Shown one piece after another: positions 49,521-64,000 of a DNA stretch of 64,000 nt. The position numbers and the translations under genes are program-made. Each line of letters starts with the position of its first letter. Positions within the stretch are counted from its first letter, which is position 1. Under the pieces are notes generated by a model. That model saw only the letters and a list, made by a program, of their open reading frames with translations. It had not been told where the DNA came from and ran no database searches. Origin of the DNA: Bryoerythrophyllum caledonicum (lineage: Eukaryota; Streptophyta; Bryopsida; Pottiales; Pottiaceae); assembly GCA_963971425.1 (NCBI GenBank), contig OZ020517.1:19310904-19374903 (forward strand). Reading direction: 5' to 3'.

Positions 49521-49903
49521 CTGCAATAGCAAAGATAGAAAGAGAGAACGAACCTTGGTCGCACGCGATCGAGAAGAGGAACTATAAGTCGACATCTCAG
49601 CTTGAATCATTGTCCAGGACGACGACATGAGAACAAGGCTCGGAAGCGAGAAATCCGATTTTACAGTGGATATCAAGCTCGGGAGATGACTTTGTGAAGA
49701 AATTTCACGTCGGGGGGAGGTAGCGTGTGAGATCAGAGCATCAGTATTGGCTGAAACATTCGATCGATTCGCGAAGTTCATGTTGCAGTGCGTTTCAGGA
49801 AATCTTCTCACGTGTTTTTCTTCAGAATTCTAGTCGTGTTCATTGATGTGCGGGGCCCTGGGGATTGGGATGTGATGATGTAGTGGGTGTGGTGTACGTC
49901 AAG

Positions 49904-52045
49904 ATGCAGTGGCTTGCTCGCCTTGCAGCCGTTGCGCATGGCGTCGCGGAGGTGGAGGTGCGTCGTCTCTTGCAGCTTGTAGCGGCCAGCTCGGGTGGCG
50001 CCGATGAGCGCGCCTGGAGCGTTCACGGGGGCGAGGCTTTGCACCGGATGGTGGAGTTCAATGAGGACTGCGGCGCTCTGCAGGCGCTGCTGGAGTGTGC
50101 GAATCTGGACGTGAATTGCCGCAGCAAGGACGGGCTGACGGCGCTGCACGTCGCGGCGCTCAACGGCCGGGAAGCGATGGTGCGCGCCTTGATGAGCCGA
50201 GAGGATTTGGACCTGAACGCGACGGCGGACTTTAAGCTGACGCCGCTCCACGTTGCGGCGAGGCTAGGACACGTTCGCGTGGTGAAGGAGCTCGTCCGCG
50301 ACGAGTGCAGGTTGATTCTGCACGCCAAGACGGTGCATGGCTTCACGGCGTTGCATCTCGTCGCGGAAGGAGGCGCTCGGTCAGAGGTGGTGGCGATCCT
50401 GCGCGCGGCGCATGAGCAGAGAATGTTTAAGGTGGGGTTTGAGAATTTTCGAGATGTTGCTGGACGGACGGCGCTACACTACGCGGCAAGGAATGGCGAC
50501 ACGGAGACGGTGCGGGAGCTTCTGGCCTTTTCGTCCGTGGATGTGGACGCGGTGGACGGCTACGGCCTCACGCCGTTGCACCTCGCGGTGCAGAAAGGCC
50601 ACGTGAATGCGTCCTGCTTGCTCATGGGAGCTGACGGCGTCGATCTGAATTGCGGAAGCGGTGTCAGGACCATTGGATTCCAAGAAGCTATTCCCGATGG
50701 CGATCAGGGCATGCGTCTTCTTTACCCGGTTTTGAGCGACGAAGAACCGGGGCCAGTCGATGTGACGCCCATCCACATTGCGGCAATCGGGAGCCATCAC
50801 AAGATTCTGAGCTCCTTGCTGAGCAGCATGCGCGTGAATCGCCGCGCCGTGGATTGTCAGGGTTTCACAGCGCTGCACCATGCTGTGGCGTTCGGAGACA
50901 TCAGTGTTGTGAAGCTGCTGGTAGACGAGGCGGAGATCGATCTCAACTGCTGCGACTTCTTGGGCCGGACGCCCTTGGTGCTCGCCGCGACGCACTCGCG
51001 GCTGGAGGTTCTGCAAGCTCTGGTTGGAGACGCGACTGCTCTTGCAGTTACGCCGGATGATTCGTTGGACCTGGCGATGCAGCTATTGGCCGTGGCCACG
51101 CGGCCGGAGGTTGCGGATTACATCATAGACTGCTTGGAAGCGTCTGCGCAGCCTGAATGCTCGTTGGTGCACTGGGCAGCGAAGAATGGGAACAAGGCGC
51201 TAATGAAGCTCGTTCTGGCGTGGAAGCCGGAGGCTGTGAACGCGACGGACGGGAGGAAGAAGCGGACGCCGCTGCATTTGGCCGCCATCCACGGCCACAC
51301 GGAGCTCGTGCAGATCCTGTGCAGGGGGAAGCACTGGCCCTTGCGAGCCGCGGAGGTTGACAAGAAGGGCGCTCTTGCGCTGGACTACGCATTTGAGCAG
51401 GGGAAGCGGGCGCGCGAGATCCAAACGGGGCTGCTCCAGAGGCCTGACGTGAAGGAGTACATGGAGAGGATCTACAGGCTGGACATGAACACCATGAACG
51501 CGCTCTTCGTCGGGGCGACGCTCTTCGCGAGCGTAACCTACGTCGGATGGATGCAGCCACCGTTAGGATTCGCCGAGGATTACCGATACCCACTGGAATC
51601 GCCTCCGGCTCCGGAAGGTACGTACGCCGTGTACGTGAAGGCCAGCAACAACTACGTGCGGCTTTTCTTCATCTTCAACACCCTGTCGTTCACCTTGTCC
51701 CTGGTCACCATCTTCCGGGGGATCGAGACGCTCGCCATACACCGCAGGGAGCTCGAAGCCGGGTACATGTCGCGGATCTTGCGAGCCGATATCCGTCACT
51801 GCTTCATCTACTTCTGCCTGTCTACCAGCTTCATCCTCGCCGCCTTCGAACAGGCCTCCCGCGCCGTCCTGCCCCCCAACGAGATGTGGTATACCCCCCT
51901 CATCATGTACACGCTATGGGGCTCCTGGGGCTTCCTGTGCATCTTCAATGCGCGCAAGTACATGAAGCGCAAGGTCAAGGAGTGGAGGCGCAAGTGGAAA
52001 CGCATTCCCAAGCGCATCGTATCTCAATTCAAGAGGCTCTTGTAG
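49904..52045 (+). CDS. ankyrin-repeat membrane protein with PGG domain
   Basis: A single uninterrupted exon encodes 713 aa from the ATG at 49904. The frame extends 13 codons further 5' but without another ATG. About ten ankyrin repeats fill residues ~85-510, with typical TALHVAALNGR, TPLHLAVQKGH and TPLHLAAIHGH cores. A PGG-type region follows (MNALFVGATLFASVTYVGWM). Then come hydrophobic spans around LFFIFNTLSFTLSLVTIFRG, CFIYFCLSTSFILAAF and MYTLWGSWGFLCIF, and a strongly basic tail. Plant proteins of this layout (ACD6/ITN1 type) sit in membranes and act in defence or stress signalling; the role here is inferred from that family. The gene is much more GC-rich than its surroundings and has no introns, unlike the other genes in the window. 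Confidence 0.9.
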   Translation: MQWLARLAAVAHGVAEVEVRRLLQLVAASSGGADERAWSVHGGEALHRMVEFNEDCGALQALLECANLDVNCRSKDGLTALHVAALNGREAMVRALMSREDLDLNATADFKLTPLHVAARLGHVRVVKELVRDECRLILHAKTVHGFTALHLVAEGGARSEVVAILRAAHEQRMFKVGFENFRDVAGRTALHYAARNGDTETVRELLAFSSVDVDAVDGYGLTPLHLAVQKGHVNASCLLMGADGVDLNCGSGVRTIGFQEAIPDGDQGMRLLYPVLSDEEPGPVDVTPIHIAAIGSHHKILSSLLSSMRVNRRAVDCQGFTALHHAVAFGDISVVKLLVDEAEIDLNCCDFLGRTPLVLAATHSRLEVLQALVGDATALAVTPDDSLDLAMQLLAVATRPEVADYIIDCLEASAQPECSLVHWAAKNGNKALMKLVLAWKPEAVNATDGRKKRTPLHLAAIHGHTELVQILCRGKHWPLRAAEVDKKGALALDYAFEQGKRAREIQTGLLQRPDVKEYMERIYRLDMNTMNALFVGATLFASVTYVGWMQPPLGFAEDYRYPLESPPAPEGTYAVYVKASNNYVRLFFIFNTLSFTLSLVTIFRGIETLAIHRRELEAGYMSRILRADIRHCFIYFCLSTSFILAAFEQASRAVLPPNEMWYTPLIMYTLWGSWGFLCIFNARKYMKRKVKEWRRKWKRIPKRIVSQFKRLL

Positions 52046-52499: not shown

Positions 52500-52580
52500 G
52501 GGGTTATTGGTGGAGGGTGATTGTGTGTCGCACCGCGGATGCATAGTAGGTCAGGTTTAAATCTCGCCTTGCAATGACAT
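52500..52580 (+). repeat. possible SINE head
   Basis: GGTGGAGGGTG near 52509 and GGTTTAAATCTC near 52548 are spaced like an A box and a B box. The sequence after the second box resembles that after the B box at 14.7 kb. It borders the LTR array directly. Confidence 0.25.
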
Positions 52581-52813
52581 TGTCGTGCACAACCACATCG
52601 TGCCAAGATAACATCGTGCTAATCAGGTGAGAACGCACAGTCAGAGACAACTCGAGAGTAACGGTGACATAACCACCACCGTTACCTCTATAAAACAATA
52701 ATACAATGCACACTTACACACTTTCAGCAATCCAGACTTGGGGAAAAAGAAACAAATGACCCATGACCTCGTACACCAAGAAGTAGTAAGCGGTCTCCAA
52801 GTACCCCTTTACT
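52581..52813 (-). repeat. partial LTR copy directly abutting the 3' LTR
   Basis: 233 bases match 53178-53410 with only two differences, both C/T or G/A. It starts (minus strand) exactly where the complete LTR ends, giving an LTR-LTR joint with no spacer, and it is truncated at about 52581. Confidence 0.8.
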
Positions 52814-53410
52814 AATATACAAGTAGAAAATACTCATAAACTACACATAGTCAAGCCAATGCCATTCTTAAAGAATGAACGCATAATAACAATGAAGTTC
52901 AAGAAGTGCACGCACTCTCTCACTCCATCACGTGGGAGACTCAACTTGAGAAAGATGAGTCTCCCCACACTACACGTGGAGGTCATTTGGACTCCAAGTC
53001 CCAAATGAGGTGTCAAAAGACACCACCAAGGCCCTAAAAGTCAAAGCACACTAACACTAACTCTAATTAACAACTAAAGCTAGCATCCAGGGTTTCCTTG
53101 GGCCATTTAACCTCCTAGTTGGTTTACAACGCGTAAACCAACCTCCACAAACCCTCCAACGCGTCGAACCTGACAGCTGTCGTGCACAACCACATCGTGC
53201 CAAGATAACATCGTGCTAATCAGGTGAGAACGCACAGTCAGAGACAACTCGAGAGTAACGGTGACATAACCACCACCGTTACCTCTATAAAACAATAATA
53301 CAATGCACACTTACACACTTTCAGCAATCCAAACTTGGGGAAAAAGAAACAAATGATCCATGACCTCGTACACCAAGAAGTAGTAAGCGGTCTCCAAGTA
53401 CCCCTTTACT
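52814..53410 (-). mobile_element. 3' LTR of the methyltransferase retrotransposon, 597 bp
   Basis: The boundaries come from repeat comparison. The right border is where the copy at 52581-52813 and this LTR diverge, right after a polypurine tract (minus strand). The left border is where it and the 5' LTR at 63845 diverge. The 156 visible bases of the 5' LTR are identical to 52814-52969. The ends are not the usual TG...CA, so they may be off by a few bases. It contains a hairpin at 52934-52965. Confidence 0.65.
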
Positions 53411-53446
53411 CGCCCCCTTCGCCCGTGCTGAAGCCCCTTTCACCCC
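53411..53446 (-). promoter_or_regulatory. polypurine tract beside the 3' LTR
   Basis: On the minus strand GGGGTGAAAGGGGC and GGGCGAAGGGGGCG run up to the LTR border, as expected for the plus-strand primer of an LTR retrotransposon. Confidence 0.6.
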
Positions 53447-53641: not shown

Positions 53642-54711
53642 TCAACATCCTAAACACTCAGGACAAGACCATTGATCCACTGGTACTTCCAACAGAGGTG
53701 GAGTTAAGCATTCTAAATGCCACCCCGTAGAACATAAGTCACAAATAACCATAGTGGCTGCCCTTTTGGCACTACCACACAACCGACAACGTAATCCAGC
53801 AGAGATGTGAGAGAGACCAGGGTGTATTGTCCCATCAATGTGTGGCAAGTGACAAGGTGCACAATTACGTGTGTGATCCTTCCACTTCTTGCCATCACGA
53901 CCCTCCAACACTAACACTCCTGAGTCCTTCACCTCACGAACTCTCAAGATTACCCGTCCTGCTGTCACATCCAAGGTGGTGGGCGCTGCTTGCTGCAAAT
54001 ACACATAGTCTCCAGGTGTGAAACGCCGCACCTGCGGTCGATAACCACCTCCCCGAATTGTAGCATAGCGCAACGTATCTCGATGTTGAGCAATGAAGAG
54101 GTTCTCCAATGCCATAGGCATCACCCTTTTGAACAACTCTGCACGTTGCTCACACACTTGAGCCCACGTGTCTGGATTGTCCATGTTAGCCAACACGGTG
54201 TTAGCATCTGCTTGAATGGCCTTCGGTAAAACCGGGTGCCTTCCAAACAATAGATAGTAAGGTGAAAAAGACGCCAATGATGCCTGTTTGCTGAACCGAT
54301 AGCCCATTGCTATCCATGGTAGCTGTAAATCCCAATCCTGGTGATGTCCTTTCTTCAAGCTGTACTTCCGGAGCCCCCTCTTGACGATTTGCACCATGCG
54401 CTCCGCCAATCCATCTGCTTCGGGGTGATCCCTCGAAGTAGTGCGATGATCTATCATCGCTTGCTCACACAACGTCTGAAACTCACCCAAGAATTCTCTT
54501 CCTTGGTCTGTAAGTACCTCTGCTGGAGCTCCAAAGCGACTCAGAACACGGTCAAGAAATGAATATGCAGCTCACTCACTAAACTTATCAGGTAATGCCA
54601 CTAACTCTATCCATTTCGAGAAATGCTCGATGATTACCAACACATACTTGTTGTGTCGAGGTGTCACTGGCAATGGACCTGCAAAATCCAAGCTCCATCT
54701 ATATCCTAAGC
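53642..54711 (-). pseudogene. integrase core and C-terminal PHD finger of the retrotransposon
   Basis: This follows the zinc-binding part of integrase after a frame change at about 54712. The core shows WSLDFAGPLPVT, VLTDQGREFLGEF and HPEADGLAERMVQ, which carry the D, D and E of the catalytic triad. A TGA at 54574-54572 interrupts it. The frame 54490-53642 is then open to the end. A linker with a GRDGKKWKDHTRNCAPCHLP block precedes a PHD finger at 53642-53791. Its spacing is C-x2-C, then C-x2-C, H-x2-C and C-x2-C, with the sequence MVICDLCSTGWHLECLTPPL in the middle. PHD fingers read histone tails; here one replaces the chromodomain found in many gypsy integrases. Confidence 0.85.
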
Positions 54712-56766
54712 CTAAATTGGCAAAGGTTGTAACTGAGGCATTGGAGCGTTGAAAGACGCTCGTACCCGGTCACACACCATACACCGAGCCACTAGAGCTT
54801 GCACTTGGGATTGCATTCCACGCCACCAGTAGTGAATCTGAAGTAGATTATAAGTCCTCCGCACTCGAAAGTGTCCAAGGTCCTCATGTGTGTCTTTAAT
54901 CAGTTTCACTCTTTCTATTGGAGTTGGTACTACCTTCTTAGTACCATCTGGCCACACTCTCACAAGATGAGTCCTCTCCCACACAAATCTCTTAGCTCGT
55001 TGTAGAACCCTATCTCTCTCCTTATGAGACCATGAAGCCACCGTTTCTCCATCTTGCAAAAACTGCATCACATTCGTGTCTTCATGAATATCTCTGGCGC
55101 CCCCAGACTCCTCACCTCCATCCTCATCTACTGTGGCCACAGTAACTTCCCCGGTGGTGTCTCCATTTAATGCCAATATTCCCAGAAAACCCGAACAATG
55201 CCAACCTGGCAACGGATCGGTTTCACCTTCAGTATGCCACCTGGCACCTGTATCATCCTCTTGGTTTGGAATTGGATTGCGGCTAAGGCCATCTGCATCC
55301 ATATTAACCAAACCTGCCCTATGAACCACCTTGAAATCATACTCCATCAACATCAAGGCCCATCGTGCCAATTTTCCTGTTAATTTATCAGACTCCATCA
55401 ACCATTTCAACGGCTGGTGATCCGTAACTAACAGAAATTCGTTACCATAAAGATAACATCAAAAATGAGCAATTGCCCATATCGCAGCCAAGCATTCTCC
55501 CTCATACGAGCTATACTGAGCCTCAGCATTGTTGTTGGACCGGCTGGCATACGCAATCACAAATTCCTTACCATCATCATCCATTTGCGTCAAGACTGCA
55601 CCAATCCCCAACGAGCTCCAATCTGTGTGTAGCTGGTATGTCCTCCCTGCTATAGGCCTCCGAAGTATTGGTGCTGATGCCAAACGATCTTTCAATTGTT
55701 GAAAGGCCGCCTCTTGCTCATTTCCCCAGATCCAAGGTTGATCATTCCTTGTCAACATGGTTAATGGCTTGGCAATGGCACTGAAAGTTTTGACAAACTT
55801 TCTATAATAGTTACACAACCCCAGAAATGCTCTCAACCTACTAACATCTCGTGGTCTAGGAATAGACATCACTACTTCGACTTTGCTAGCTACCACACCT
55901 AATCCACTTGGATAAATCATGTGGCCTAAATACTCAATGCGATCAAAGTAGAATTTGCACTTACTAGGGTGCAATTTTAATCCATGAAGCCTCAATCTAG
56001 CAAAAACCTCCATCAAGTGTAGTCTATGTTGTTTTCGATTCCTGCTAAAGACAATGATGTCATCAATATAGCATCTCACGAAATCCAACCCCGAGAATAC
56101 TCTGTCCATGACCCTTTGAAATTCTGCTGGAGCATTCTTCAATCCAAACGGTAGAAACTTCCATTGAAATAACCGGTCCTTCCCATCCCTATCAATGCCC
56201 CAGAATGCGGTTTTCTCCTTGTCTTCCTCTCTCAATCCAATCTGGTGGTATCCAGAGCGTAAATCCAACGTACTAAACACCTTGGCATGGCCAATGGCCT
56301 CAAAGTTCTCCTCAGGAGTTGGCATTGCATAACGGTCTGACTTAGTGATTTTATTAATTCTCCTATAGTCACCACACATCCTTTTTTCAGTCCAATTGCC
56401 GTAAACGTCCTTCTTGGATGGCATAACCGTTGCTGATGCATACTCACAATCTGGAGGAGCCAACTCCACCAACCCTGCAGCCATCAATTCTTCAGTGCGA
56501 GCACGAATCATCTTCCGCTCCATGTCGCTGTACTTGTATGGCTTTCTATAAATTGGTGCTTCGTCGGTTAAGTTAATACGCACTTCTTGCCCCTTCAACA
56601 CTCCCAAATCATGTAAACTGAAAGCAAAACAATCTAAATACTCCTTCAGGAACTCATGTTCCTCCACCTCCACTGCTCCATCTGCCAGGCCAACTCTTGG
56701 TTTCCAAGTGTCCTTGGTCACCACCTCCTTCGGTTCCTTTGAAGCAGGGTTTTCCACCCTTGGTTG
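54712..56766 (-). pseudogene. reverse transcriptase, RNase H and integrase zinc-binding region
   Basis: The frame entered after the TAG at 56769-56767 runs 432 codons from 56757. Gypsy-type reverse transcriptase motifs are clear: FSTLDLRSGYHQIGL, FLPFGLKNAPAEFQRVM and YIDDIIVFS, which holds the catalytic Asp pair. RNase H begins with YQLHTDWSSLGIGAVL and YSSYEGECLA. A TGA at 55461-55459 interrupts it, and the same frame continues with VTDHQPLKWLMES and MDADGLSRNP. The H-H-C-C zinc-binding part of integrase follows (HEDLGHFRVRR, then CMVCDRVRASF). The frame is lost at 54712. Confidence 0.9.
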
Positions 56767-56769
56767 CTA

Positions 56770-58791
56770 TTGAATCCCCAGTGAAGGAGACTCCCCTCCT
56801 TCCTCCTCAATAACACTCCCAAGTCCTTCCAATTGACCCAATTTATCAATTTCTTCCATGTGAAGAGCTGTGTGTTCTTCCAAGAAGATCTTCTCCACAA
56901 CATCCTCCAAATCCATCCTCTGATGAGCCAATCTGTTACCTTCACTCCAGTTCTCCCCTCCATAGTGAAGATCTGTTGCCTTGGTGGTCGCAAAAATATT
57001 TGCGTTATCCCACATGTTCCATGGATGAGGTGCAAGGGCCCTCTCGCCCCCAACCACCTTGCTTGTCACCCTGACAGAGGCAAGTGGTTCTCCTGCCGCC
57101 CGCAACTCATAATAACCCATGTAACTAGTCAAACTAGAAGCTAACCGCTTCTGTTCTGCAACCACTAATGAAACAATCCAAGTCAAGCAATTTAAATCCA
57201 TGGCCTGACCAAGTAAAAATCGTCTCTGTGGTTCTGAAATCCCGGGCACATCGGTGGTGCCAGTGGGAAATCCCATGGCTCTCTCTCGCTCATTTGCATT
57301 TGGCTCCACCATCTCCTGGGACACTGAATCCCATACAAGTCCAGGTCCATTATCCTTGAAAGCATAAGACCTTGCAAAACTAACCAACGTGGGCAAGGCC
57401 CTACGTGGTTCCCCTTTGCGGTTAACCACCGCTAATGGGACCAGGTCATCGTGATACACGCGCCATGGTGTCCTGTGAGGATCCAAAATGTCACTCACAT
57501 ACACATCTGGGTGTTTAATACGACCCACCGCGGACTGTAGCAACTCTGCTGGGGCCAAGTTTGTCCACCACAAGCGTGGTCTATGTGCCCTGGACCCTAC
57601 TGCAGCCGCATCAATTAATACTGGCAATCCCAGAGTCTGATGGATCCTATGCATACTCTCGAGTGTCCTGGACCTCGAACTGCTCACCACGGGCACGTTC
57701 TCCACAATATAACCAGGCGGTTGCCTCTGAGAAGTCTGAAGCACTCGAATCACTCGAATCATGTCAAAGAACCTGGAAGAACGTGAATCCTTTAACCCAT
57801 TCTGATTGCCTGCCATAGACATGCCTTGGCAAGGCCATCCTGCAATTACAAGGTCCACATGACCCACTCGATGAATGTCATCGTCTGACAACAAGGAAAT
57901 ATCACCCACAAGTGTAGAGAAGGAGGTTTTGATGGCACTAGTGGCCAACAATTCTGGGAATTGGATCCTCAGCCTCCGTGTGTGACGTTTGGCCACATGC
58001 CTTGCTGTTTCATCCACATCCACGTAAATGTAGCGCTTAACCTTGATCCCAGCTTGTAAAACAGCTGCCAAGCCTGTGCCAATTCCTCCGAAGAGTTCCA
58101 ATAATACGATACCATCCATTGGTGCCTTCCAATGGATAGTAGCAATGTCTAACGGAGGTCCCATGTCTTGGTCAACTCCAGTCTCATGTTGCATCTGTGG
58201 TAGCATAGATTGTTGCCATGCCTCTTCCACTGCTAACTCCGCGGCCTCCCTCAACTGGGTGGTGTTACTCCACGCCGCCTCAATCCCAGGTTTGTATCCT
58301 TCTTCCTCTCCACCACTTGTGTTGCCCATATAGACATCCACCTTCGTTGAAATGTGGTCACCCATAGACGGATCCTCAAAACCTGTCTGAAACCATGAAG
58401 GTTTCATGTTCATACATCCAGAGAAGGCAAACAGATCAGCGAAGTTACCAGTAAGAACTCGAACAAATCGAGCTGGCAGCTGAGCCTTCCGCCCATCTCC
58501 TGCTTGCCATCCTGGTCTATAACTTGCTGACTCCTCCCAGAAATCCAAGGTGAATCCCATAGGATATAGCACCGCCGAGCCCACCAAGACATCATACGAC
58601 TTGGCCTCCGTAACGATTGCCTTCACCTTCATAGAACTGGCATCTGCCACATCACTTTGGTTGAGTTGTAACACCAACTCAGCCCTTGTGATCCCTGTGG
58701 CTTGCTCAGTACCCCCCATGGATGTACTAATGGTCCAGGGACACTTCTCCAAAGTATCCCCAGTTAATCCCAACCCTTCCATAGCTGACGC
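56770..58791 (-). pseudogene. end of protease plus cytosine-C5 DNA methyltransferase of the retrotransposon
   Basis: Open from 58782 to 56770 (671 codons), in frame with the gag-protease part before it and the reverse transcriptase after it, but bounded by in-frame stops. Residues ~1-105 look like the second half of a gypsy protease (SYDVLVGSAVLYPMGFTLDF). Residues ~222-550 (57133-58119) are a C5 methyltransferase. It has motif I LLELFGGIGTGLA, motif IV AGWPCQGMS with the catalytic Cys at 57829-57831, motif VI IVENVPV, motif VIII GSRAHRPRLWW, then RERAMGFPTGTT and a motif X-like end. Motifs are in canonical order, as in DNMT3 and unlike permuted plant DRM enzymes. The wording around motifs I, VIII and IX is DNMT3-like. 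It would methylate cytosine in DNA. Confidence 0.9.
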
Positions 58792-60879
58792 TCACAACAT
58801 CAAAGGTTGAGCTCCCGAATCCAGAAGCACACGTCGAGGTACAAATATCTTCCCCTTAGGCCCAACGAGTTGGAAAATACCTTGGGAATTATCAACCACT
58901 ACCACACCAGGGGTAATGGATGATCTCTCAATCGCAGGTCTAGCGGCCATTGTCTTCACACGCATGGCTGCTGAAAGCAGCCCCTCCACGTTGTCACTCT
59001 GGCTCTTCTCTGCCTGGATTATCTCTGTCTTCAACACATTAACGCCCGGGGAGTTGTCTAACTCACACATTGAGGCCACACTTTTGAAGACCTCTGCCAC
59101 ACTGAAGCCATCCTGTGACAACATCTTAGCAGAAAATAACGAGGCTTCCCACACGGAAGTAGTTGCCTCCATAAGTGCTCCAGAACCTCCTCTGAGTCCT
59201 CCAGCTCGTGGTAAGGCTTGTGTGGAGGTTGCCACTGGTCGTGGTGGAGGTACCATAGATGACGTTGGTACCATCTCTTCTAACGTGAAGGATTGAGGCA
59301 ACCTGGCTTGTCGATTATCCTTTCCATGGTGAGGATCCAGAGTTGGACTAGCTCCACGTGGAACATCCTTAGAACTTGGAGTATGACTCCGTGTGAGGGC
59401 ATAGGCCTCCTGTGTGCCATCCCTGATGGCAAGTGCCATACCACTTAACATAAAGTCTCCAAATTCATCATCTACGGAGCTAAACCCGCCCCCAGCATGA
59501 AAACTGGGAGTAACCTGAGGCTTGCTACCTACCACATTGGTATTGGCACTCATAGCTTCCATCTTGGCCTCCAACTCGGCAAATTTGGCCTTCCAACTCT
59601 TCTTCTCCCCTCCAGTGGTCTTGGACTCCTTGTCCTTGCCTCCTTTAGCTCCCTTACTCCCCGTGGGCTTCAACTCTGGATGGAGCTTCCAGCAGCTGGC
59701 CTCTGCATGCCCCTTGGCACCACAACCCGAGCAAAAACCTCCAGTCTGAGGTGTGGAGGTCTTGCCTTCCTTGCAATCCTTCCTCTGATGTCCTGGCTTC
59801 CCACATTTGAAGCACAAGGCACCAGACTCCGCAGTATACGAAGGAATGGCCACCTTGGCCACGTTAACCTTCTCTGGGACCTTCTCCTCACGTTTGAAAA
59901 AGCCCATGGCTGCCTTCTCCTCCAGTAAATTTATCTCAATCCGCTCCGAAGTTTCAAAAACAAACCGCAGTGTCGTGGGTACTCCCAATCGCAACGCCTC
60001 ATTGCGAACCAAGGTCTTCAACTCTTTATCTAGGATACTGTACCAATGTTGTACTGCCTGTTGTTCTGTAACTCCGTGGGTGGCTGAAATTAATCTCCTT
60101 AATCTCGCATGAGCCTCTCTCAGAGACTCGTCACCTCCACGTGTGAAGGAACGAAGGGCCTTCATCTTATCCGCCCTCTGTCCTTGGTAATCTCTATGGA
60201 GTTGCACGAAGAATCCCACGGTGGGATTGAATGGAGGTGGATGATTTACCAGTACCTCCGGCTGCTCCACATCCTCCGTTGAGCTCGTGCCTTCTTCCAT
60301 CTTCCGCTTGGACAAGAGTGAGGGGGTCACCCTCGGTGCTCCACCGAACACATCCACGTAGTTCGGTGCGTAGAAGTCCCTCCAGGCCATGATTTCGGTG
60401 AAATGAGCCGCCTCGAACTCTCCCTAGTCTGCCAGTGGTTCTCCCTCGAGACACCCAAATAAGGCTCTCCACACCATATACGGATTGAAGTTGGGGTTAC
60501 GTGACTTCTGGAGTTCACACCACATTGTGAACTCCCTCTTGAAGTCATCGACTTCGATGGTGCCCGTGGCACCTGAAAATCTTCGTACCCCTCTTTCCCC
60601 ACCCCCATATGGTGAAGCCATTTCTTCCCAATCAAAATATGATTGGTAAGGCTTTATGTGTAAAACTGGAACCTGAACACTCACTTGCGGGCTTTCTAAA
60701 AATTCCTCCTCTTCCACCAGTGGCAAAGCACTCTCCTCTACCTCTTCCGATTGACCACGAATTTCAGACAACACTCTCTCACTAGCATCTACTGAGAAGG
60801 GGGTGTTTCTACGTGTAAACCCGGGACCCTTCCAGTTCTCCAGATTGCTAGTTTCGTGATCTACTCGAACAAATGCCAA
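58792..60879 (-). pseudogene. gag with two zinc knuckles and start of protease
   Basis: Read from about 60879; a TAG at 60426-60424 interrupts the frame, which continues to the TGA at 58794-58792. The capsid-like region is at 60390-59900. Two CCHC zinc knuckles are visible, CFKCGKPGHQRKDC and CSGCGAKGHAEASC, which bind the genomic RNA. The end reads RRVLLDSGAQPLML, whose DSG is the protease active-site motif. Between knuckles and protease lies a long Ser/Thr/Gly-rich spacer. The stop just after the DSG block splits the protease between this frame and the next. Confidence 0.88.
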
Positions 60880-61502
60880 GCCTCATGGATTCCTCTTATC
60901 TCTGGAGCATAAATCGTAGGTGTGACTTCCCAGTCCAATAACTCTAAGGTAAGAGTATCCCACACACTCGAGGCACGCTCTTGCCACGTATTAACCTCCC
61001 ACAGCCAGGTAGTGTGGAATAAAAATCCTTCGCTCTCGAACTCTGTGAAAATGAGTGAGAAGGTGGGTAACTGGATGCCTGAAGAGAAATCCTCGACCTC
61101 TACACTAGATCTGGATCCAGAATTTCGAAGAACCACGGCCTTACCTCTAGTTACCAAGTCTTCGACCCCCACTTGACCACGAGCGCGGCACAGAGGTGCT
61201 GGAATTCCCTCCTTCACCCGAAGTGAGCGGATCTTCTGCACTCCACCTAGTGAAGTCCAATACTTCACTGATTCCGCACTTAACACCTTCGTGCTTGGCT
61301 TACGCAAACTCTGTGGCCCCGTGCGAGATTTGGCTATGGGTGAAAGCTCAAAATCCTCGTGACTACCACTTGCTGTGGCTAGTGAACCTTTCACTCGTAG
61401 GTTTTGTAAACAATCGATCAAGGTGTCCAACACCTCCCCATCAATTTCCACTTTAGACTCACTAGCCTTTTCGGGTTTCTTGGACTTACCTCTTCCCTCC
61501 AT
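60861..61502 (-). CDS. N-terminal retrotransposon ORF of unknown function, 213 aa
   Basis: An ATG-started frame (MEGRGKSKKPEKASES) lies upstream of gag and overlaps it by about 19 bases in the -1 frame. Its composition is soluble, Ser/Glu/Lys-rich at the start, then more globular (ESEGFLFHTTWLWEVNTWQE). No family is recognised. It may be the true start of gag, joined by a frameshift or broken by an indel, or a separate protein. No classic slippery heptamer in the right phase was found in the overlap. Confidence 0.5.
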   Translation of the reverse strand: MEGRGKSKKPEKASESKVEIDGEVLDTLIDCLQNLRVKGSLATASGSHEDFELSPIAKSRTGPQSLRKPSTKVLSAESVKYWTSLGGVQKIRSLRVKEGIPAPLCRARGQVGVEDLVTRGKAVVLRNSGSRSSVEVEDFSSGIQLPTFSLIFTEFESEGFLFHTTWLWEVNTWQERASSVWDTLTLELLDWEVTPTIYAPEIRGIHEAWHLFE

Positions 61503-63831
61503 GGTCCATAACTGAAATTCCCAATATCCTTAAAATACTCAAACCATGTTAATGAAATCCCTGCACTTTACCCCCTACCAGGCCCTATGAGCATGAGTCA
61601 CCTCTCAACCCCCTCATAATCAACCTTGATCCTCAGGTGCTCTCACATGCAAGCCCTTCCTGACCTCGTACGAATACGACAACCACATATAATCCCAGTG
61701 TGGGTATCGTGCACAAGTCAAAGCTTATACCGTAAACCTGTGTCTCTGCAACTAGGCAAGTGTTTCCTACTACCAGTTATCAGGTCCAAACTCGGTCACC
61801 AACCCCTACAGCCGGTCATCAACCCGACTGCCGGTTATCAACCCAACTGCGAGTCATCAACCCCACAGCCGATCAACAACCAAGGGGCCGGATATCGGAG
61901 TTAGATAAGGGTATCACAGTACCGATTGGTTATTGCAGTCACAATGGGGTATCAGGGACCAGTCCGGGTATCAACTATAACGCCAGATCTCAAACCTCAC
62001 ACCGAGTCTCAACTCTCATACCGGGTATGTGGCAAGTGAAGGTTTCAGCTGCATAGACCTGTATAAAGTGTAATCCGGGTATCACCTATCAAACCCGGAT
62101 ATCACTAATCACTCCTGGTTCCGACACTCAATCCGTGTAACATCACTCAACCTGGGTGTCCGCATATGGACCGGATATCAACATATGGATCAGGTCTACA
62201 ACAAACCAGGGTATCTCTTACTGTCCAGGATATCAACCAAGCCCCGGGTATACATCTATTGTCCGTGTATGAACCCCCAAACCCGGATATCAACCCACAG
62301 ACCTGGGTGCAACCCAGACCCGGGTATACTCCATGCCCTGGGTATACACTAATCACCCGGGTACCAATAGAGTGCCGGATATCAGTAGAAGAAATGGGTA
62401 TAAGCTGAAAACCGGGTATCAGACCCTAAACCAGGTATTAACTCTCGAAACGGGTATCAACTGCAGTACCGGGTATCAGACCCACTGCCCCGATATTGAC
62501 CCGACGCCCAAGTCACCAACCTCTGCCCCAGATATCAACCTGTCCTGGGTATGAGCATCAGAACCGGGTACGGCATAAGAACAGGGTATAATCATAGGCA
62601 CCCGGGTATCCTGGAGTTAACCGGATATCAGCAAGAACCAAGTATCAACCAGCACCGGGTATCAGGTGGAAAATCGGGTACCAGGCTCACAGCGGGTACC
62701 AGCCTCACACCAGTGGGTATTAGCCTCGCACCAGGGTATCAGCTAAGGACCGGATCTAGGTAGCAGGGTATAGATAAGTGCCGGATAGAAGTATCAATGA
62801 CCGGGTAGGAGTACAGTCGAACGAACCCTGTCTGCGCCGCCCTGTCAATGGTTGTCTGTGCGCACAGACACGATGCGGTGGTGCAGAAATCCCGAACGTC
62901 TGCACTCGAAGGAACGCGTCTCACCTCCCGTGTCTGTCTGCAGGCCGAACTTCCCAGAACCGCGGACAATCTCTCACCGCGTATGATACTAACCACGAAC
63001 ACAAGCGCGCTCACCCACACTACGGCTAACCGCAACATTCAAAACTCACTCAGCCGTTCCAACTTCCTCGCATTCCCACAAAAGCTCGTCGCCCGAAGTT
63101 CCCCTGCAATTCCAAGCCTGACGATGACCGTGAGCCCGCAGCGACGGCGAGGACAACTGGTTCTTGTGCACACAGAACTGAAGACGCAGGTACTACTGTT
63201 GCCCTTACTCGAATAAATGCAAACAGAACCTCCTCTCTTTGCAGCGAACATGTTAGAGTTTGGCTCCGCCATCGTCAACTTCCCCTGCTTCGCCAGCCAT
63301 GGTGTCCCTCAAGCTGCAGGCGATCGGACGCACTGGGTCCCGAGGGCACGTGACGCAGGTGCGCGTCAAGTGCACCCAATGCGAGGCCCCTTGCTCAGCG
63401 CCCCCCCAGAACACTGCGATGCCGCTAGACGCACCACCGCACGTCTCGAAAGAAATCGGACAAGGTCACACCTCGCCCCCCTGCAGTCAATCCTCGCACT
63501 AGAACAAGCTCCTGTGACAACCGCCACCCAAAAACCACCAGTGCACAGACGCGTCGTCTCTCTCCTGTGAAAGCGGATCTGAGATCCTCACAGAAAATGT
63601 GGATGAAGACTAAAGGCAACGGACTATCATCCACTTGGATTGGCTTAGAGTTGACATCCGCCACTCATTCTCACCCTTATCCAATGGATTTCATCCACTT
63701 AGCTAAGCACACTTGAGGTTTTGCAACAAAATTTCAGCACTATAACATTGCTCAAAAACACCCTAAACACAACATTTTGAGGGTTTTAAGTGTCACTAAA
63801 TCACTATGAATACACTTATATCTTAGTGATG
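61503..63831 (-). other. long leader of the retrotransposon
   Basis: About 2.3 kb separate the primer-binding site from the first ORF. The part at 61780-62790 is packed with ~20 GGGTAT words, often CCGGGTATCA, spaced roughly every 20-60 bases. The part at 62800-63570 is GC-rich, with small palindromes such as CTGTGCGCACAG. Frames on both strands here are low-complexity by-products of the repeats. No pairing LTR was found inside, which supports placing the LTRs at 52814-53410 and from 63845 onward. Confidence 0.55.
61880..62790. repeat. degenerate array of GGGTATC words
   Basis: About twenty GGGTAT occurrences on the plus strand, many as ACCGGGTATCA. The same word class is packed at 8506-8607 (CCCGGGTATCAACCCGGGTA). 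Spacing is irregular, so it is not a clean tandem repeat. Confidence 0.7.
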
Positions 63832-63844
63832 ATCTTTCTCAAGT
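63832..63844 (-). promoter_or_regulatory. self-complementary primer-binding site
   Basis: Directly inside the 5' LTR border the minus strand reads ACTTGAGAAAGAT. It has no match to a tRNA 3' end (no TGG start). Its exact complement, ATCTTTCTCAAGT, lies in the LTR hairpin loop at 63974-63987. This is the arrangement of self-priming retrotransposons of the Tf1 type. Confidence 0.6.
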
Positions 63845-64000
63845 AATATACAAGTAGAAAATACTCATAAACTACACATAGTCAAGCCAATGCCATTCTT
63901 AAAGAATGAACGCATAATAACAATGAAGTTCAAGAAGTGCACGCACTCTCTCACTCCATCACGTGGGAGACTCAACTTGAGAAAGATGAGTCTCCCCACA
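63845..64000 (-). mobile_element. 5' LTR, cut by the window edge
   Basis: 156 bases identical to 52814-52969 of the 3' LTR. The rest lies beyond the window. It includes the hairpin with stem GGGAGACTC (63965-63973) and GAGTCTCCC (63988-63996). Confidence 0.75.

Follow-up and report, generated by a model that had tools for sequence, protein, structure and literature searches.

A Ty3/Gypsy retrotransposon carrying a DNMT3-like cytosine methyltransferase under purifying selection in the moss Bryoerythrophyllum caledonicum

The window analysed here, a stretch of 64,000 nucleotides from the moss Bryoerythrophyllum caledonicum (positions 19,310,904 to 19,374,903 of contig OZ020517.1, assembly GCA_963971425.1), contains at 52581-64206 on the minus strand a Ty3/Gypsy element that encodes a DNMT3-like C5-cytosine methyltransferase (MT), the end of the element running 206 bases past the end of the window. 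The element is a young, partly broken copy of a high-copy plant Ty3/Gypsy retrotransposon, in which the MT is kept under purifying selection. Elements of this kind are already known, repeat layout included, from the alga Klebsormidium nitens, where KnitGypsy-Dnmt3 was described in 2018 as a Gypsy element with an intron-free DNMT3-type domain (PMC5890265). Coordinates of the element are given on the minus strand throughout.

A preliminary description of the window, made from its letters, had recognised a Gypsy element, and this is borne out by Pfam matches in the window copy and in an intact copy, which place the gag knuckle, protease, reverse transcriptase (RT), RNase H and DDE integrase in Ty3/Gypsy order. 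The coding region comprises gag with its CCHC zinc knuckle and, at the end of the open reading frame (ORF), the protease start with the DSGA motif (58792..60423); an open ORF of 674 aa with the C-terminal part of the protease, the MT and a 121-residue tail (56770..58791); the RT with the start of RNase H (55459..56766; PF00078, E 5.7e-34); the end of RNase H with the integrase zinc-binding domain (54712..55458); and part of the integrase core, the C-terminal region and a PHD finger (53642..54571; PF00665, E 4.6e-05; PF00628, E 6.1e-10). The PHD finger, which had gone unmentioned, also ends the integrase in an intact 1041-aa frame of another copy; Pfam matched no integrase chromodomain in that frame or in the window copy, and the PHD finger stands there instead.

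The ORF 56770-58791 matches the Pfam family DNA_methylase (PF00145, E 2.2e-14), and the MT domain itself (57133..58119) is supported by Pfam, by a structure-sequence search and by genome copies. Its translation matches 51 distinct solved-structure sequences at E <= 0.01, the best being the DNMT3A catalytic domain (6w89; E 2.8e-15, 59.6 bits), ahead of DRM2 (39.5 bits), HhaI (37) and DNMT2 (20.7), in agreement with the DNMT3-like wording first noted. Two DNMT3A stretches align to the MT in canonical order, and because they keep the order of DNMT3A the MT is not permuted as in DRM, again as had been claimed. The catalytic domains of DNMT3A and DNMT3B are thus its nearest solved relatives by sequence and share its motif order, but the element MTs are 32-40% identical to the DNMT3A piece, and neither ADD nor PWWP was matched by Pfam in the window copy or the intact copy.

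The MT is not confined to this insertion. The contig that carries the window is C4 in an assembly of 437 Mb and 894 contigs, and an MT query of this genome gave at least 122 matches at 87-100% identity, a lower bound as only the best candidates were scored. All but three, which are on small contigs, lie on contigs C1-C15 (119 of 122), and these matches exclude chance or contamination as their source. Several fall within open frames of 1359-1371 aa; in other copies the MT is contiguous with gag and pol, so that the break in contiguity raised at the outset did not appear, and the 1041-aa frame mentioned above is an entire second frame from RT to integrase and PHD finger. The window copy itself is damaged at places that leave the MT intact: the protease region contains an in-frame stop, the RT-to-integrase frame is interrupted by two stops, and the frame breaks ahead of the final part of the integrase. 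The insertion is young, since its two copies of repeat A match at all 363 positions. A second family in the same genome has MTs 54% (L033) and 49% (L034) identical to that of the first, and L033 retains gag, protease, MT, RT, integrase and PHD finger. When the genome was queried with DNMT3A, the 150 scored matches were mostly element copies; two non-element loci were noticed, one a DRM by structure search (L092), the other DRM-like by eye (L035).

The retention of the MT is best seen in its substitutions. Pooled over the 30 best of the 122 copies, with pairs below 85% identity dropped, pN/pS was 0.210 in the MT (435 of 435 pairs), compared with 0.323 on the protease side (351 pairs), 0.426 in the tail after the MT (325) and 0.233 at the start of ORF2 (277). 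An additional comparison was provided by L074/L085 (CADCWO010000201.1), a record labelled as a cyanobacterial metagenome-assembled genome (MAG), which holds a plant-type Gypsy ORF1 and ORF2 of the family-2 type, its ORF2 being 63.9% identical to that of our element, and which is evidently mis-binned plant DNA. Between L033 and L074, dN/dS was 0.09 in the MT, 0.14 in gag/protease and 0.09 at the RT start, so that in this one pair the MT is as strongly constrained as the RT; between L033 and L034 it was 0.12 in the MT, and pairs between the families were saturated at silent sites. Given these pN/pS and dN/dS values, the MT is kept like an essential domain.

The MT had been placed in frame between the protease and the RT. 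It does share the frame of both, joining the protease upstream, but a UAG stop (56767..56769, context CAA-UAG-CAA-CCA) separates it from the RT, and it belongs to the gag-protease frame. In intact copies this frame closes with UAG 121 codons past the MT, after which RT, RNase H, integrase and PHD finger follow in the same frame. The UAG keeps its frame and its expected position in 23 of 30 copies; among the others it is shifted by indels in three (L015, L017, L028) and replaced by CAG in L016, and the site falls outside the stretch inspected in L007, L014 and L021. Its context across copies is UAG-CAA-CCA, with UAG-CAA-UCA in L029, and it becomes UAG-CAA-UCA in L033, L037 and L074 and UAG-CAG-UCA in L034. 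All of these fit UAG-CARYYA, the read-through signal of tobamoviruses. The conserved UAG is of the leaky type, and read-through, if real, would mean that the MT is made together with Gag and exceeds the RT and integrase.

The repeats of the element do not form an ordinary pair of long terminal repeats (LTRs), a reading that we rejected as the 5' end has repeat A only and the 3' end has B-A-B. Self-comparison places A at both ends and B on either side of the 3' A alone, giving the layout A-coding-B-A-B: A1 starts with TGTC at 64206 (63844..64000 within the window); a purine-rich tract, presumably the polypurine tract (53411..53425), precedes B1 (53176..53410); B1 meets the 363-bp A2 (52813..53175) at the joint GACA-GC-TGTC; and B2 (52581..52812) ends in GACA, the 3' terminus. 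A 4-bp target duplication (ATGT on the element strand, 52577..52580) has its partner just past the window end, after 64206. The same layout occurs in 10 of the 11 family-1 copies examined (the window copy and ten picked for open frames), with A and B matches partial in three copies of a diverged subfamily, and it recurs in a family-2 copy together with the same GACA-GC-TGTC joint. Both ends could be placed in 10 family-1 insertions (in L050 the 5' end was not found), and each of these runs from TGTC to GACA with a perfect duplication of 4 bp on either side; such duplications also flank one family-2 copy (AGCA) and one solo A-B unit of 603 bp (TCGA). In the remaining one of the 11, at ~30819280-30830370 of G000:C1 (L054/L055), the layout is A-coding-B with a clean 4-bp duplication, which may be a one-repeat insertion or a later loss by recombination between B1 and B2.

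The two A repeats of one copy are separated by 0-4 substitutions (9 copies) and its two B repeats by 0-3 (10 copies), and copy-specific variants are common to B1 and B2; because these variants are shared and the differences few, both repeat pairs must be renewed at each transposition. Genome-wide there are at least 41 A and 40 B places, of which 40 each were scored. Among these, no two A copies on the same strand lie within 3 kb of each other. Ten A pairs are spaced at 9-14 kb; in nine of them a B from the places listed stands next to the downstream A, and in none next to the upstream A. Two A repeats also stand head to head at G000:C3:22470438-22471092, with 10 bases between them. Ordinary strand-transfer logic would yield BA-coding-BA, of which the inserted form is a rotation, and this suggests a circular DNA opened at the B|A palindrome. 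The simple version, a 2-LTR circle cut at either B|A joint, was rejected, as it predicts that about half of the insertions be A-B-A-coding-B, and this form is found in none of the 10 copies with both ends; since it is missing, some asymmetry would be needed, and the circle stays a guess. The sequence of L074/L085 runs from A directly into the leader, which may reflect a real circle or an assembly collapse of repeats, and was not used as evidence for a circle. Split direct repeats are also found in DIRS/PAT elements, but these employ a tyrosine recombinase, whereas the window element has a DDE integrase and 4-bp duplications; DIRS elements are not known to make target duplications.

The repeats also point to how reverse transcription might begin. 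Directly after A1 lies CTTGAGAAAGAT (63832..63843), a presumed self-complementary primer-binding site that is the exact complement of 12 nt, partly in the loop, of a perfect hairpin in A (52945..52956). This complementarity holds in nine of the nine copies that could be tested (two of the 11 being left out), two of them from the diverged subfamily, in which the alignable part of A is ~79% identical, and the chance of such a 12-nt match at that exact place is ~2e-5. In a family-2 copy the site, one base past the repeat end, is CTTGACAAAGAC and its hairpin partner GTCTTTGTCAAG, and in L074 they are CTTGACAAAGAT and ATCTTTGTCAAG, so that two site positions covary with their hairpin partners. The complementarity and the compensatory changes across three sequence types suggest that reverse transcription is probably self-primed from the hairpin in repeat A. 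As for a tRNA primer, no TGG start follows A1, judged by eye with no tRNA library compared. Self-priming is known in Tf1/Sushi elements and predicted in plant Tcn1 elements (PMC6317226), where it resembles the priming proposed here; elements of the Tcn1 chromovirus clade and Tf1/Sushi have a chromodomain and ordinary LTRs, in contrast to the PHD finger, split repeats and MT of the window element.

Compared by description, KnitGypsy-Dnmt3 and the window element share the Gypsy domains, the DNMT3 domain, the A-coding-B-A-B repeats (given in a figure legend for the former) and an MT under purifying selection (Ka/Ks < 0.2 in KnitGypsy-Dnmt3; PMC5890265). The hosts differ, and the algal DNMT is described as lying in the Pol polyprotein ORF, whereas the MT of the window element ends the gag-protease frame before the UAG. 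The main text of PMC5890265 contains no occurrence of PHD, readthrough, self-priming or target site, which leaves these points outside the comparison. SymbioDIRS-Dnmt3 of Symbiodinium, from the same paper, likewise has a DNMT3-type domain and A-coding-B-A-B repeats but a tyrosine recombinase and a DIRS-type RT, in place of the DDE integrase, Gypsy RT and 4-bp duplications found here. Neither KnitGypsy nor SymbioDIRS was found by name in a paper other than de Mendoza 2018 (PMC5890265); the passages retrieved from Sarre 2025 mention streptophyte and dinoflagellate cases (PMC12344493), and the main text of a survey of plant LTR retrotransposons (PMC6317226) contains neither PHD nor methyltransferase. 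Titles, abstract openings and retrieved passages, subscription papers and preprints not being covered, gave no report of an MT-bearing Gypsy element in land plants; within the same limits, the literature on split repeats in Gypsy, on a PHD finger with integrase and on self-priming yielded no such element.

Protein searches were made with the MT domain (277 matches, 120 of them listed), with the longer frame scored over its MT part (80) and with the environmental protein P0155 (35). The named sources of relatives are Marchantia polymorpha, Calypogeia fissa, Sphagnum troendelagicum, S. fallax, Closterium sp. and Haematococcus lacustris, many others being environmental; no Klebsormidium protein was among the matches listed. 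MT and RT occur in the same protein in 5 of the 14 Marchantia models checked, the single S. fallax and Haematococcus models and one of six from Closterium; no RT match was found in the three Calypogeia and two S. troendelagicum models checked. The preliminary description had left a choice between the extension of a known class to another lineage and an independent capture. The former stands; a fresh capture in this genome fits less well than one old MT-bearing Gypsy lineage in green plants, given the congruence of the MT and RT trees. Where both domains were available (29 rows: 27 proteins, our element and L074), the two domain orders form one and the same split, with support of 100/99 in the MT tree and 99/100 in the RT tree. 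A larger MT tree of 51 rows holds a 22-row group to which every named bryophyte row belongs (97/96) and a 14-row RT-MT group (100/99), apart from two DIRS-type MTs; its only host DNMT3 is the human DNMT3A piece, on a long branch, and the places of DNMT3A and DRM in it are unsure.

An unlikely but not negligible alternative is that at least two captures took place, the MT-RT group of bryophytes and streptophyte algae and the RT-MT-integrase group of Haematococcus (whose relative has this other order) and environmental relatives having acquired their MTs separately. The 213 retrieved proteins offer some support for it: of the 35 with both domains, 19 have the MT before the RT and 16 after it (177 have an MT without RT, and one had no match), and the RT branch of P0211 is very long. 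Both groups nevertheless have the PHD finger and a Gypsy pol, the two trees share the split, and one domain move within a single lineage would be equally simple. P0211, with its MT far upstream of a very divergent RT, may itself be a separate capture.

As to function, we propose that translation normally yields a Gag-protease-MT polyprotein and that ribosomes now and then read through the UAG, extending the product by RT, RNase H, DDE integrase and PHD finger; the MT would then outnumber RT and integrase and be packaged along with Gag. Reverse transcription would be self-primed from the hairpin in repeat A, and the DNA would be inserted by its TGTC/GACA ends, giving rise to 4-bp duplications. 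At about the time of these two events, before the new copy settles, the MT would methylate the element's own DNA, and the new copy might thereby pass as host DNA or arrive quiet. We give this scheme as a whole an even chance of being correct. Self-methylation is the likeliest role that we infer for the MT, because the domain is under selection, it sits with Gag, and two SymbioDIRS-Dnmt3 copies encode MTs with de novo CG methylation activity in yeast (PMC5890265). Several observations weigh on the other side. The CpG value of the element (0.60) is close to that of the rest of the window (0.64 over 1-49800), with no sign of a special methylation history; the catalytic motif of the 213 proteins, AGWPCQ in 105, is AGWECQ in 18, a sizeable group in which another residue takes the place of the proline preceding the catalytic cysteine; and other Gypsy elements transpose without an MT. 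In addition, the KnitGypsy MT showed no activity in yeast, a result that its authors call inconclusive (PMC5890265).

A broader idea, which is speculative and on the improbable side, starts from animal DNMT3, in which an ADD is paired with the catalytic domain. The integrase PHD finger and the DNMT3-like MT could, by analogy, resemble such a pair split over two polyproteins. An old green-plant Gypsy lineage so equipped might enter the genome from circular, methylated DNA: a self-primed BA-coding-BA product would join its ends, and the DDE integrase would open the circle at GACA-GC-TGTC to give A-coding-B-A-B with 4-bp duplications. It is rather unlikely that the MT is active but restraining, silencing new copies or slowing transposition so that the host survives and the element persists, with disguise as host DNA no part of its purpose, an option named by de Mendoza et al. 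(PMC5890265). Restraint rests on the same sequence facts as self-methylation, and this genome contains many copies that are defective or look silent. Insertions so young that their repeats are still identical and their frames open, on the other hand, indicate that the family stays active, and selection at the level of the host should relax more easily than a dN/dS of 0.09 shows. More doubtful still is the idea that the MT acts on RNA, or binds nucleic acid within the particle, in place of methylating DNA; the position of the MT in the Gag-protease frame and the Klebsormidium relative without demonstrated DNA activity (PMC5890265) would suit it, but the catalytic PCQ (or ECQ) and ENV motifs are retained in most of the retrieved proteins and the nearest solved relatives are DNA enzymes, DNMT2 scoring far lower. 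Bacterial contamination, which the preliminary description had named as a refuting outcome, viral contamination, and recent transfer from either source can be dismissed for practical purposes despite the bacterial labels of P0048 and L074, since the family has its many copies in Gypsy context on large contigs, the only close match among seven bacterial-genome loci is L074, itself a Gypsy-MT contig in a MAG, the other six being partial and 29-41% identical, and the 16 viral-contig loci are partial and 23-45% identical. The two best of the latter (L058 and L059), which were inspected, have no match to the RT-integrase frame. P0048, labelled as an Obscuribacterales MAG, is probably the same kind of contamination as L074.

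Other features deserve brief mention. Upstream of gag lie two overlapping frames (60424-60882 and 60861-61529, together 60424..61529) without a Pfam match, the second of which (222 aa) has a similar length in other copies. Adjoining the element on the plus strand, at 49847-52045, an open frame of 732 aa that encodes ankyrin repeats and a PGG domain (GC ~61%) is probably a host gene. Its CpG value is 1.10, and the low value of 0.64 over the rest of the window is in keeping with ordinary methylation of CG sites in the genome. A bacterial-looking Dcm-type frame of 370 aa (L032, G000:C14:16016358-16017317; 218 bits to PF00145) lies on a chromosome-scale contig and may be a transfer or assembly contamination. 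Among the environmental proteins, P0192 (1337 aa) combines a cytosine methyltransferase, an RT and a Dam adenine-methyltransferase and looks like a DIRS-type element with two DNA methyltransferases, and a G-patch domain is listed for P0210.

Since 2018 it has been an open question what a retrotransposon gains from a DNA methyltransferase. The association of an MT with Gypsy is not a curiosity of one alga, as protein models with this MT are found in Marchantia, Calypogeia, Sphagnum, Closterium and Haematococcus. The combination of split repeats with a DDE integrase poses a concrete mechanistic question, the inserted product not being the one given by ordinary LTR logic. Such models exist in Marchantia polymorpha (Mp_4g09160, Mp_8g17980 and Mp_6g11220), a plant used as a genetic model, so that removal of the MT gene and methylome assays become possible and the role of the MT would be testable in a laboratory plant.
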